In this document: positions 3,010-6,104 of the stretch, piece after piece
Layout of the letters: each line of letters begins with the position of its first letter
Position numbering within the stretch: the first letter of the stretch is position 1
Source: Bacteroidaceae bacterium
GTDB lineage: Bacteria; Bacteroidota; Bacteroidia; Bacteroidales; Bacteroidaceae
Assembly (NCBI GenBank): GCA_017464345.1
Contig: JAFUAH010000015.1
Span: 34,775-98,774 of the forward strand
Direction: 5' to 3'
Length of the DNA: 64,000 nucleotides
Program-made: the position numbers and the translations under genes
The notes under the pieces: generated by a model
The model's database searches: none
The model's input: only the letters and a program-made list of their open reading frames with translations
Told to the model about the DNA's origin: nothing

Positions 3010-3017
3010 CAAATATA
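3010..3017 (-). promoter_or_regulatory. -7 box for araB
   Basis: TATATTTG on the minus strand lies about 50 nt upstream of the araB start, giving araB a promoter separate from the araA-containing operon. Confidence 0.7.
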
Positions 3018-3041: not shown

Positions 3042-3110
3042 GTTTTCGGCCTCAAATTGATAAAATCCCGTCCATCTTTCCTCGTTTCTCGGGATTTGTT
3101 TGTATATTTG
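3042..3110 (+). promoter_or_regulatory. 69-bp promoter repeat, copy 1
   Basis: A 69-bp sequence identical to 4460-4528. It ends with TATATTTG (3103-3110), a perfect -7 box, and contains an imperfect hairpin, AATCCCG ... CGGGATT. It drives the toxin-antitoxin pair beginning at 3140. Identity over 69 bp of non-coding DNA in front of unrelated genes indicates a recently copied promoter cassette. Confidence 0.85.
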
Positions 3111-3139: not shown

Positions 3140-3391
3140 ATGGCAACAGTTTCGGCATCAATGCCTCGCCCCGTGACACTCAATGTCAGTCTTGAAGATA
3201 CTTCAATGTTGCGAGATGTAAAGAAGGCCATCTCCATGTTACGCGGTGTAACTAAGGTAAGCGTACCGCGTACTAAGAAGTATGACATCACCAAAACCGC
3301 AGGTTTTCGTGAGGCCATGGAAGACGTAAAGTGTGGACGCGTGACACACTACGACTCTCTTCAGGACTTTTACAAAGAGATGGGGCTGTAA
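3140..3391 (+). CDS. Putative antitoxin of a YafQ-type toxin-antitoxin pair
   Basis: An 83-residue small protein with an N-terminal segment, MPRPVTLNVSLEDTSMLRDVK, and a short acidic/helical C-terminus typical of antitoxins (YDSLQDFYKEMGL). One base separates its stop from the YafQ-like toxin start, the classical antitoxin-first arrangement. The antitoxin family itself is not clearly recognised; the N-terminus may be a dimerising DNA-binding region. It is expressed from the 69-bp promoter repeat just upstream. The role is inferred from its partner. Confidence 0.7.
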   Translation: MATVSASMPRPVTLNVSLEDTSMLRDVKKAISMLRGVTKVSVPRTKKYDITKTAGFREAMEDVKCGRVTHYDSLQDFYKEMGL

Positions 3392-3392
3392 G

Positions 3393-3668
3393 ATGGAATA
3401 TCATGTAATCATTTCCTCACGCTTCAAGAAAGACTTCAAGCGTTGCATGAAGCGGGGGCTTGACATGCGTCTCATCACAACAGCAATGGACATGCTCAAG
3501 GCTACAGGTACGTTGCCGGCACAATACCATCCCCATAAACTTGTTGGAGAAAAGCGTGGTATCTGGGAATGTCACATCCAGCCCGACTGGCTGATGACGT
3601 GGGAACAGAATAATCAAGAACTCACCCTCCTGTTCCTACAGACAGGTACGCACGCAGACCTTTTTTAA
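3393..3668 (+). CDS. YafQ/RelE-family mRNA interferase toxin
   Basis: A 91-residue toxin with the YafQ hallmarks: FKKDFKRC near the N-terminus, HKLVGEKRGIWECHIQPDW in the centre and THADLF at the very end. The His, Asp-Trp and terminal His/Phe residues correspond to the ribosome-dependent RNase residues of YafQ. In characterised relatives the toxin cleaves mRNA in the ribosomal A site and is neutralised by the upstream antitoxin. All key residues appear intact, so an active toxin is plausible. A structured element follows 9 nt after the stop. Confidence 0.88.
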   Translation: MEYHVIISSRFKKDFKRCMKRGLDMRLITTAMDMLKATGTLPAQYHPHKLVGEKRGIWECHIQPDWLMTWEQNNQELTLLFLQTGTHADLF

Positions 3669-3677
3669 TTACTTAAC

Positions 3678-3900
3678 CCTTACGCCCATGAACAGATAAA
3701 CAAACGTAAAAACATATAGGAAGAAGCGTCCGCTTTGATTCTTGTTTACCGTAATTTAGCCAAAATTATTAAACTATCAAGATTGAAGAATGGATGCTCA
3801 CGCCGATGGCGTGGGCTTTTACTCGTTGATGATAGTTGGGTGTTTGGCGACACCTCGGTAAACGTAGACGAAAGTAATTGTCCACGTTTCTTTTTTGTGT
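3678..3900 (+). ncRNA. Covarying structured element, copy 1
   Basis: A 223-bp element related to 5060-5285. The ends are conserved: a left block around AAGAAGCGTCCGCTTTG and a right block around GACGAAAGTAATTGTCCACG. The inner stems are different in sequence but perfectly paired: 3744-3751 with 3856-3863, 3759-3764 with 3843-3848, and 3772-3779 with 3830-3837. The apex is a conserved hairpin, CACGCC-GAT-GGCGTG, at 3799-3813. This is strong evidence for selection on folding. It ends 48 bases before a lipoprotein gene. It could be a leader RNA, a free small RNA or a folded single-strand recombination site. No match to a known class is recognised. Confidence 0.75.
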
Positions 3901-3947
3901 ACTTATTCGTAAGACATCTTATTATTAACTTTTAAAAATAAACAAAA

Positions 3948-4352
3948 ATGAAAAAACTTTTAGGAATGTTGCTGCTGACCTTAATAGCAGCAGTTAGTTT
4001 CACTCTCGTATCGTGTGGGGATGATGACGATGACAAGAACAAGGCTGGTGAAGTGACCGAAATGTACGGCCTTTGGGTGTGCATCACCAGCGAAGACAGT
4101 TGGTCGGGCTATATTGCTAAAGACCAGTTTGTGGGAGAGGAACTTACTATTAACTCTGATGGAACATACACATCTACAGCAGAATCGTTCGGCTATACGG
4201 GAAAATGGAGCGTTTCGGGCAATTCGTTCGTAGCAAAAACCAGTTATGGCAAAACTATTACTGCTACATTTTCTGTAAGTGGTAACTACATGACTCTATC
4301 AGGTAAGACGAACGAGGGAGTTACCTTCAATTATCATTTTAGGAGGAAGTAA
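3948..4352 (+). CDS. Small lipocalin-like lipoprotein
   Basis: A 134-residue protein with a signal peptide and lipobox (TLVSC, Cys about 23), followed by an Asp-rich stretch (GDDDDDKNK) that in Bacteroidetes often directs lipoproteins to the surface. The remaining about 100 residues are beta-rich, with alternating strands (TYTSTAESFGYTGKWSVSGN), resembling lipocalin-like domains of Bacteroides lipoproteins. Function unknown. It sits directly after structured element copy 1, which may act in its 5' leader, and before a hairpin terminator. Confidence 0.75.
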   Translation: MKKLLGMLLLTLIAAVSFTLVSCGDDDDDKNKAGEVTEMYGLWVCITSEDSWSGYIAKDQFVGEELTINSDGTYTSTAESFGYTGKWSVSGNSFVAKTSYGKTITATFSVSGNYMTLSGKTNEGVTFNYHFRRK

Positions 4353-4382
4353 GGGCTCGACAGAATACTATACGTCAAAGAA

Positions 4383-4417
4383 CAAGGGCAGCCAGTCGGA
4401 GTAACTTGTTGCCCTTG
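4383..4417 (+). terminator. Hairpin terminator, AAGGGCAGC family
   Basis: CAAGGGCA pairs with TGCCCTTG around a loop containing AGTCGGAG. It lies 31 nt after the lipoprotein stop. Similar hairpins are at 6133-6166, 7628-7659 and 11760-11794. Confidence 0.65.
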
Positions 4418-4459
4418 AATCATGGCTTTTGTCGGTTGCAATGAGTTGGAAAATGTTAG

Positions 4460-4528
4460 GTTTTCGGCCTCAAATTGATAAAATCCCGTCCATCTTTCCT
4501 CGTTTCTCGGGATTTGTTTGTATATTTG
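4460..4528 (+). promoter_or_regulatory. 69-bp promoter repeat, copy 2
   Basis: Identical over 69 bp to 3042-3110, ending in the -7 box TATATTTG at 4521-4528. Here it drives a DUF4160-DUF2442 pair instead of the YafQ pair. Confidence 0.85.
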
Positions 4529-4548
4529 TGGCACAAATATGTAATGCG

Positions 4549-4788
4549 ATGCCTACGATATTCATCTTTTTCGGATTCCGTTTCATGTTCTACTCTAACG
4601 ACCACGAGCCAGTGCATGTGCATATTTTCAAGGATGGGAACGAGGCTAAGTACAACGTCACGGGGATAGAACTGATATACAATCACGAATTCAAGAAACA
4701 GGAACTGGCACTTATCGAATCCATCATAGAAGAGAACAAGGAAATAATCATAGAACGCTGGAAGGCTCATTTTGACAAGAAGAAGTGA
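4549..4788 (+). CDS. DUF4160 family protein
   Basis: A 79-residue protein starting MPTIFIFFGFRFMFYSNDHEP and containing the conserved His-x-His (VHVHIF), the standard DUF4160 core. The Met at 4549 is chosen over an in-frame upstream Met because the latter precedes the promoter box at 4521-4528. It has the same role and partner as the pair at 634-1152 but diverges strongly from it in sequence, so this is not a recent local duplication of those genes. Function unknown. Confidence 0.82.
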   Translation: MPTIFIFFGFRFMFYSNDHEPVHVHIFKDGNEAKYNVTGIELIYNHEFKKQELALIESIIEENKEIIIERWKAHFDKKK

Positions 4789-4799
4789 TAACGCAGGCA

Positions 4800-5057
4800 A
4801 TGATAACCAAGGTGTGGGTAGATGAGACCCATGTGTATGCCGAAACGAAAGACGGCAGACAGGCTCGTTATGCATTTGCGGAATGGCCGCGTTTGGCTAA
4901 TGCCACAGACGCGCAACGGCGTGACTTCTATCTCTCATACGGTGGCATTCATTGGCCGCAAATCGACGAAGACCTAAGTTTCGAGGGCATGTTCGAAGAC
5001 AGCGGCGTGCTCTATGCTGCCGAGCCGGAAGCCCCTGAGTATAATGTAAAACAGTAA
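4800..5057 (+). CDS. DUF2442 family protein
   Basis: An 85-residue partner of the DUF4160 protein, with the DUF2442 features RQARYAFAEWPRLANAT and GGIHWPQIDEDLSFEGM. ATG 4800 is preferred. A GTG at 4785 overlaps the preceding stop codon and would add five residues, so translational coupling through that site is possible. The stop is followed within three bases by structured element copy 2. Function unknown. Confidence 0.82.
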   Translation: MITKVWVDETHVYAETKDGRQARYAFAEWPRLANATDAQRRDFYLSYGGIHWPQIDEDLSFEGMFEDSGVLYAAEPEAPEYNVKQ

Positions 5058-5059
5058 AA

Positions 5060-5285
5060 CCTTACGCCAATGGACAGATAAACAAACGTAAAGACATATA
5101 GGAAGAAGCGTCCGCTTTGATTCTTGTCTTCTGAAAATCTGCAAAATTTAAGAAGTACACGAGAGTAAAAGGCTCAGACGCTCACGCCGATGGCGTGGGC
5201 TTTTACTCGTAGATGTGTACATAGGTTTTTGCAGATACCTCAGAAGACGTAGACGAAAGTAATTGTCCACGTTTTCTTTTTGTGT
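5060..5285 (+). ncRNA. Covarying structured element, copy 2
   Basis: A 226-bp element homologous to 3678-3900 at both ends and at the apical hairpin. All intervening stems have been rewritten but still pair perfectly: 5126-5134 with 5240-5248, 5137-5146 with 5227-5236, 5155-5160 with 5215-5220, and 5163-5171 with 5200-5208. The right boundary is followed after 50 nt by a small membrane protein gene. The alternatives are as for copy 1. Confidence 0.75.
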
Positions 5286-5335: not shown

Positions 5336-5530
5336 ATGAAAAAAGCGACTTTAATGGGACTTGTAGGCAGCATTATTATACTGCTGATACAAGTGTATTA
5401 TTTTATTGGGAGTTTCAGTGTCATCCAGTATGGCGGTGGCATTGTACACGTAGTTACTAATTTGCTGGGAATCGCAGCATGGTGTTGTATTGCCTATTTC
5501 TTTTTTACCCTTTATAAAAAGCAGAAGTAA
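5336..5530 (+). CDS. Small two-helix membrane protein
   Basis: A 64-residue hydrophobic protein with two predicted membrane helices (about residues 6-27 and 36-58) and a basic tail, LYKKQK. It begins 50 nt after structured element copy 2 and is followed after two bases by another membrane protein gene, so the two are probably co-expressed. No family is recognised. A small membrane partner such as a holin-like or toxin-like peptide is possible, but nothing in the sequence establishes it. Confidence 0.6.
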   Translation: MKKATLMGLVGSIIILLIQVYYFIGSFSVIQYGGGIVHVVTNLLGIAAWCCIAYFFFTLYKKQK

Positions 5531-5532
5531 TT

Positions 5533-5889
5533 ATGGAAGAAAGTAATGTATTTGAGGAGTTAGGAATCGAAACCGTAAAAGAGCAGAAGTCGCAAACTGA
5601 CGAAAAGATTGAAGTCGGCACTAATAATAGTGCAGAAAACATGCTGGAGTCAATTTCTTACTTTATACTGATTGGGGGAATTATCGTGACGGTTATTCTG
5701 CTATTTAGTATCTGCTTTATTCAGAATCCTGCTTACCACTATTACAAGGAGTATATGTTTAACCCGACCGGATTCGGAATAACATGTGGGACACTACTTT
5801 CAACGCTGGCCTCATGGGCTGCCTTGAAAGTTTTTGCCAACATCTCTAAGACTCTGAAGGAGATTAAAAACCGGATGCCCAAAGCATAA
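5533..5889 (+). CDS. Small membrane protein, unknown function
   Basis: A 118-residue protein with a soluble acidic N-terminus of about 40 residues, a hydrophobic helix (YFILIGGIIVTVILLFSICF, about 43-63) and a second, weaker helix (about 82-102), ending in a basic tail. It is probably co-transcribed with the 64-residue membrane protein two bases upstream. It is not recognised as a known family. The region following it up to 6190 holds an array of short repeats and a terminator but no gene. Confidence 0.6.
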   Translation: MEESNVFEELGIETVKEQKSQTDEKIEVGTNNSAENMLESISYFILIGGIIVTVILLFSICFIQNPAYHYYKEYMFNPTGFGITCGTLLSTLASWAALKVFANISKTLKEIKNRMPKA

Positions 5890-5952
5890 TACATGTTTTC
5901 CGATGAGAAGCCATATAGTACATACTTCCTTTATTAGCCCACCGTCGTGCAC

Positions 5953-6104
5953 GCTATTAGGGAGAGGGGTGTGCTCATTAGTAGTGCGCAAGATTCCTCG
6001 CTATTAGCGAACAAACTTGCTGGCTATTAGTGAGCATACCCTGTTGGCTATTAGCGAGACGAATTGTTCGCTAATAGCGAGGAAAGAGGCGGGCTAATAG
6101 TGAG
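5953..6104. repeat. Phased array of CTAWTAGYGA motifs
   Basis: The motif CTA(T/A)TAG(C/T)GA occurs at 6001, 6024, 6048, 6071 and 6094, that is every 23-24 bp. Two degenerate copies lie at 5954 and about 5975 in the same phase. The spacers are unrelated in sequence. It is not a coding repeat (the period is not a multiple of three) and not CRISPR (the repeat is too short). It looks like an iteron-style protein-binding array. It lies between two convergent genes. Confidence 0.7.

Follow-up and report, generated by a model that had tools for sequence, protein, structure and literature searches.

The described systems closest to the element reported here are transcription attenuators and riboswitches in which terminator and antiterminator strands compete; they share with it a 5′ position, a pseudoknotted fold, a strand with two exclusive partners and a U-rich tract after the second of these. 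The element differs from them in having no known ligand or Rfam match, in sharing the strand in question with an apical hairpin, and in carrying a putative mini-ORF at its 5′ edge. In leader-peptide attenuators, for example the short leader of Bacteroides tetQ, a very short ORF likewise lies upstream of a structured leader, but the ORF of the present family has only one to three codons, the second of which is variable. Integron attC sites resemble the element in their conserved ends, variable stems and cassette-like neighbours; the element differs from them in the predicted promoter and mini-ORF upstream and perhaps in an excess of G–U over A–C cells on the gene strand (121 : 95 without one column pair).

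Structured RNAs have also been described from the same phylum, and the Bacteroidota RNA motifs of Weinberg 2010 include Bacteroidales-1, Flavo-1 and Bacteroid-trp (PMC2864571). Rfam, which holds these three motifs, has no match for the leader family; GUCCY-hairpin, which has no Rfam accession in the table of that paper, falls outside the comparison. Copies in the window (the whole 64 000 nt stretch of DNA that was analysed) had no match in Rfam 15 even at an E value of 5, and in 19 distant loci no match at E 1 or better overlapped the element, in keeping with the preliminary description, according to which it resembles no class that can be named. No description of the leader RNA was found in the available text of PMC8040213, PMC7160235, PMC2864571, PMC7366714 and PMC9723704, and that of PMC11109978 and PMC8632094 did not mention the terms for it; literature searches returned no paper describing it, and a listing in supplementary files is possible. 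The family is apparently undescribed. It is widespread in the phylum Bacteroidota and larger than first claimed, and the start–stop mini-ORF, the second partner of the apical-hairpin strand and the modular gene context are new beyond the first observation. We think it probable that these elements form a family of cis-acting leader RNAs with mutually exclusive folds that attenuate the next gene, often a gene for a secreted or surface protein.

The two copies in the window

The leader copies lie at approximately 3683–3900 and 5065–5285, the conserved stretch starting near 3683 and 5065, within the following arrangement.

3042–3110, + strand: predicted promoter-region repeat, copy 1; 69 bp identical to 4460–4528, with the TATATTTG box at its end (3103–3110)
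3140–3391, + strand: small ORF in antitoxin position, no Pfam or NCBIfam match
3393–3668, + strand: YafQ/RelE-type toxin gene (Pfam PF15738, E 7.4e-28; RelE_StbE above cut-off)
3688–3699, + strand: putative start–stop mini-ORF, copy 1 (M-N-R-stop)
3711–3900, + strand: RNA core, copy 1 (match to model R1)
3725–3731/3792–3798, + strand: PK1, copy 1
3744–3751/3856–3863, + strand: P1, copy 1
3757–3764/3843–3850, + strand: P2, copy 1
3772–3779/3830–3837, + strand: P3, copy 1
3799–3804/3808–3813, + strand: P5, copy 1
3839–3843/3850–3854, + strand: small hairpin, copy 1
3880–3886, + strand: strand X, copy 1, complementary to the 3′ side of P5 (3810–3816)
3887–3896, + strand: U-rich tract, copy 1
3948–4352, + strand: downstream gene 1 (134 aa, lipoprotein-like signal, no Pfam match)
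4460–4528, + strand: predicted promoter-region repeat, copy 2, with TATATTTG at 4521–4528
4549–4788, + strand: DUF4160 gene (DhiT-like, below the NCBIfam cut-off)
4785–5057, + strand: DUF2442 gene, partner of the DUF4160 gene
5070–5081, + strand: putative start–stop mini-ORF, copy 2 (M-D-R-stop)
5093–5285, + strand: RNA core, copy 2 (match to model R1)
5107–5112/5177–5182, + strand: PK1, copy 2
5126–5134/5240–5248, + strand: P1, copy 2
5137–5146/5226–5236, + strand: P2, copy 2
5154–5160/5215–5220, + strand: P3, copy 2
5163–5171/5200–5208, + strand: P4, copy 2
5183–5188/5192–5197, + strand: P5, copy 2
5224–5228/5235–5239, + strand: small hairpin, copy 2
5265–5271, + strand: strand X, copy 2, complementary to the 3′ side of P5 (5194–5200)
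5272–5281, + strand: U-rich tract, copy 2
5336–5530, + strand: downstream gene 2 (64 aa, membrane-type), followed by a 118 aa membrane-type ORF at 5533–5889

The preliminary description had reported two folded elements at these positions. The covariance model R1 (191 positions, built from 54 copies) matched both, with 186.5 bits at 3711–3900 and 201.8 bits at 5093–5285, and both folded better than their shuffles (z −5.6 for copy 1 and −5.2 for copy 2, with none of 200 shuffles as good in either case). The stem given there as an example (3744–3751/3856–3863 against 5126–5134/5240–5248) is exactly P1 of the two copies. The accompanying statement that the inner stems pair in both copies applies to P1 but not to P4 (GAGUAAAAG/CUUUUACUC), which is poorly formed in copy 1; the apical hairpin is shared by the window copies as described, but its two top pairs vary across 102 copies.

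Two other repeat structures lie in the window. An inverted repeat (arms 336–370 and 413–447, 35 nt, 86 % complementary) is flanked by 32 nt direct repeats at 269–300 and 553–584 (91 % alike), so that 269–584 looks like a small palindromic, REP-like unit. After the second module, the intergenic region 5930–6104 holds five imperfect copies of a 35 nt GCTATTAGCGAG-type repeat with long inverted repeats.

Consensus fold and exclusive pairings

The consensus architecture, derived from an R1 alignment of 102 matches out of 100 sources searched, comprises five stems and two pseudoknots. Compensatory changes had been read as a sign that folding is under selection, and this reading is strengthened by the covariation in the 102 aligned copies: 31 of the 51 pairs changed on both sides, including all eight P1 pairs and all seven P3 pairs, there were 510 double-changed cells against 131 in shuffles, and 92.7 % of cells paired, compared with 82.2 % in shuffles and 34–44 % when partners were slid by one to three columns. 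PK1 joins a 5′ AGCGUCC to GGAUGCU, which adjoins the apical hairpin. The 3′ strand of P2 lies in the loop of a small hairpin (GGUGU/AUACC). For PK1 and this hairpin, both outside the alignment model, 95.7 % of cells paired and 32 were double-changed, against 5. Because pair counts on a model-fitted alignment lean towards the model, most weight falls on the permutation tests given below, on PK1 and on the small hairpin; relatedness among genomes and copies also means that the counts are not independent. Of the helices, P2 is the weakest, with 77.5 % of cells paired, partly through misalignment.

G–U cells outnumbered A–C cells on the gene strand, by 205 to 95 in the genus and 161 to 70 in the wide set, which points to an RNA of the gene strand; in the genus it does so modestly, as without one G–U-dominated PK1 column pair the excess there is 121 to 95. 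Two further helices were rejected. P6 (CGUAGAC/GUCCACG) has no covariation support as a general stem, because it is almost invariant in the genus and, by eye, absent from most distant copies; P0, a pairing of the 5′ strand with the 3′ end, gave z values of 2.0 and 0.5.

In distant copies, a strand that we call X lies directly before the U-rich tract and is complementary to the 3′ side of P5 (for example, GTGGGCGTTTC/GAAACGTCCAC at L313 and AGACGTGGGAC/GTCCCACGTCT at L308). Own and permuted partners were compared in 20 representatives (similarity below 0.75) from 60 distant loci, and own partners were superior for P5 (z 7.7), for the 3′ side of P5 with X (z 5.9), for PK1 (z 4.8) and for X with the 80 nt that follow it (z 4.5), the negative controls giving 1.1, −0.5 and 1.5. 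P5 and the helix of its 3′ side with X share one strand and are mutually exclusive, as in attenuators and riboswitches. The 3′ side of P5 thus has two exclusive covarying partners, and X also has two, which is the layout of an attenuator. A U-rich tract (at least 6 U in 10 nt) follows X in 90 of 100 copies.

In the preferred reading, that of an attenuating leader, the element and the downstream gene would be transcribed together, the helix of X with the 3′ side of P5, followed by the U-tract, would be the OFF state and the P4–P5–PK1 fold the ON state, and the balance may be tipped by a ligand, by a protein or by a ribosome sitting on the mini-ORF. The assignment of the two states is provisional, because X and its partner are almost invariant within the genus, the downstream partner of X was found by eye only outside it, and the hairpin CGUAGAC/GUCCACG could also stand before the U-tract there. 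When nearest-neighbour energies were calculated with pseudoknots left out, forcing the X helix gave the overall energy minimum in just 3 of 100 copies and a far weaker fold in many distant ones; a simple terminator scan of the window flagged P5 and not X.

X could instead pair with either P5 or a strand near the downstream start codon, in which case ribosome access, not termination, would be controlled. The covariation of X with the downstream 80 nt in distant copies speaks for such a translational switch, but the signal is weak when all 63 non-redundant copies are taken together (z 2.7), the downstream partner is missing by eye in the genus and the U-rich tract is kept in nine-tenths of copies, so that we regard this alternative as unlikely. 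A second L128 match (43 bits), probably false, is counted in the 63-copy test and the 100-copy fold set, and not among the 20 representatives.

Flanking genes and modular context

The genus set comprised 112 copies, of which 111 were used, L103 being cut by a contig end. Orientation is fixed: 104 of the 111 are followed by an ORF on the same strand, whose start lies a median of 60 nt away. By a crude rule for secreted types (early positive charge and a hydrophobic stretch, without a later membrane helix), 89 of these 104 ORFs qualified, against 61 of 273 control genes. The corresponding figures were 69/83 for named copies among the matches listed and 13/18 at both the family and the order level; the share drops with distance, to 4/7 at the phylum level and 7/18 in five chosen genomes. 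In several phylum-level loci the next protein, read by eye, presumably corresponds to the N-terminal part of a SusC-like TonB receptor. Other genes follow some of the distant copies, for example one for a zinc-ribbon-like protein (by eye) at L303 and L309.

The preliminary description had offered three readings: an undescribed cis-regulatory RNA, a small RNA, or a folded single-strand recombination site. The first is favoured by the fixed orientation, the distance of the downstream ORF, the G–U excess and the covarying alternative pairings. The copies might otherwise be trans-acting small RNAs with their own terminator, which came to lie in front of genes through common descent or duplication, as the U-rich tract behind the 3′ strand and the several copies per genome would allow; the link to a downstream gene, at a constant strand and short distance and enriched for secreted types, argues for action in cis, and we consider the trans-acting alternative quite improbable.

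One site was compared between the window and four other genomes; it lies beside the same gene, which we take to be sugar-kinase-like. Genome G110 matches the window through the promoter, the YafQ pair and the leader (92 % over 1505 columns) to position 3901, the leader end, and then diverges. In G028 and G127 the promoter region is followed by the leader with no pair between, and the downstream genes are others; the leader of G028 shares 98 % identity with copy 2 of the window. In G096 the kinase is accompanied by a promoter-like stretch, and the leader is absent from the approximately 960 bases available beyond. Promoter and leader are constant where the pair and the gene that follows are variable, so that modular exchange is shown, though not its mechanism. 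Promoter and leader would then be a platform with two exchangeable slots, one between promoter and leader for a toxin–antitoxin pair and one after the U-tract for a gene. The cassette idea thus survives from the third reading, in that flanking genes differ between species while promoter and leader stay. As a mechanism, a folded single-strand site that swaps cassettes is unsupported and very improbable: similarity does stop at the leader end and the genes on either side differ between genomes, but ordinary homologous exchange through the leader would yield the same borders, G–U exceeds A–C, a mini-ORF and a predicted promoter stand at the 5′ edge, and matches lie on many contigs.

Both window copies directly follow a two-gene module (the YafQ pair and the DUF4160/DUF2442 pair), as first described, but this does not hold for every copy: of 108 copies, 73 have the end of a same-strand ORF within the 260 nt upstream, the other three of the 111 having too little upstream sequence to be counted. 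Of 110 copies, 34 have a TAnnTTTG box that ends 40–75 nt ahead of the core, compared with 1.9 % of 1930 random positions. The box was found in 10 of the 60 copies with a same-strand ORF end within 100 nt upstream and in 33 of the 48 without one. To judge from this box, the 69 bp repeat is probably a promoter region; it was matched in only 5 of 139 genus genomes. The repeat (3042–3110, 4460–4528) also holds an inverted repeat, AAATCCCG/CGGGATTT, in place of which L015 has AAATTCC/GGAATTT, as if compensating.

The inspection of flanking genes that had been proposed revealed, besides the secreted-type ORFs on the 3′ side, toxin–antitoxin-type genes 5′ of many copies. Pfam searches of a first set of 74 upstream genes (the 73 and the window copy 2 gene, added by hand) found HepT (7), nucleotidyltransferase (7), HEPN (7), DUF2442 (6), YafQ (4), PDDEXK_2 (4), ORF6N (4), PIN_3 (3) and ParE (2), with PemK for the first member, and 46 genes one further upstream gave nucleotidyltransferase (14) and DUF4160 (5). 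A second set of 56, of which 54 remain after removal of spurious reverse-strand matches, gave HepT (6), nucleotidyltransferase (6), YafQ (3), PIN_3 (3), Zeta (3; these matches overlap general AAA families) and DUF2442 (2). Provided that no protein is counted twice, at least 28/74 and at least 23/56 are of toxin–antitoxin type. Among 90 control genes, picked mechanically from 328 ORFs, only ORF6N (1) of these families occurred within the 25 families listed, a rate that may be lowered by non-genes among such ORFs; even supposing five of the 90 controls to be positive, Fisher's test gives p of approximately 2e-7.

That the RNA serves the upstream toxin–antitoxin operon, as a processing site, a terminator or an RNA partner of the toxin, would fit these neighbours, and we give it very little credence, since most copies without a close upstream gene carry the TAnnTTTG box instead, G028 and G127 lack the pair at the compared site yet carry the leader there, and the toxin families are diverse where the RNA is one family.

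The start–stop mini-ORF and distribution

The 5′ edge of the leader reads GCC[T/A]ATG. Among 199 distinct leaders (the genus set and the named matches listed, without 28 overlapping reverse-strand matches of the palindromic element), 183 have the ATG, which an in-frame stop follows in 175, after 0 (26), 1 (121) or 2 (28) codons; the first TAA or TAG was in frame in 154 and out of frame in 28 of the same set. A start–stop mini-ORF (AUG, up to two codons and a stop) is therefore predicted in 175 of the 199, so that, as far as sequence can tell, the leaders share with leader-peptide attenuators an upstream ORF with an in-frame stop. No conserved peptide or regulatory codons were found, the second codon being varied, and with one to three codons no peptide sequence can be sensed. 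By eye, the mini-ORF is present in 12 of 19 order-level copies and absent from 12 of 13 copies in genome G450. In 20 phylum-level loci, L282–L300 among them, a raw count without a chance level placed a start–stop pattern 3′ of the RNA in 14, six of them with GCCT directly in front of it; those between RNA and downstream gene in L282–L300 might be a separate leader module.

Beyond the attenuating leader itself, we regard as possible rather than likely a ribosome-gated switch that is old in the Bacteroidota, in which the mini-ORF would load a non-elongating ribosome whose presence selects one of two folds of an RNA with two pseudoknots. Promoter and switch would form a portable two-slot platform exchanging toxin–antitoxin pairs and envelope genes, bringing surface repertoires under one ribosome-sensing control. 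A start–stop mini-ORF of this kind would be an unusual bacterial ribosome sensor. A regulatory RNA this large and this widespread, and missing from Rfam, would mean a further level of control for the surface proteins of major gut and rumen bacteria; the family supplies a ready list of target genes across many species, and its variable toxin–antitoxin slot is a natural experiment on where such pairs settle.

The covariance search of Bacteroidales that had been suggested found many further homologues. In the genus, 84 of 139 genomes had a match, spread over many contigs. R1 matched 156 of 251 sampled genomes (22 of 30 genera) in the family, 93 of 295 (67 of 184 genera) in the order and 29 of 296 (13 of 140 genera) in the phylum. 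Genomes often hold several copies; copy numbers are lower bounds, as the best 5–10 candidates per genome were scored (at most 10 in the family, order and phylum scans, and 150 in a scan of five genomes chosen for having matches). Named carriers of the 3′ motif, among the matches listed, are mainly rumen Prevotella and Prevotellaceae assemblies, along with Prevotellaceae bacterium MN60 and Prevotella sp. tc2-28; record titles of other taxa, for example one Lachnospiraceae, may be binning errors. A plasmid or phage element was rejected: blastn of copy 2 gave no match in plasmid and phage collections, and none of the nine viral contigs that matched a short pattern held the RNA according to R1. 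In the genome of the window itself, nucleotide search located the element in three places and the covariance model added a weaker fourth. This divergent copy (76.5 bits; contig C16, L332, 2726–2916) precedes an ORF (at 3013) that opens with what resembles a signal peptide.
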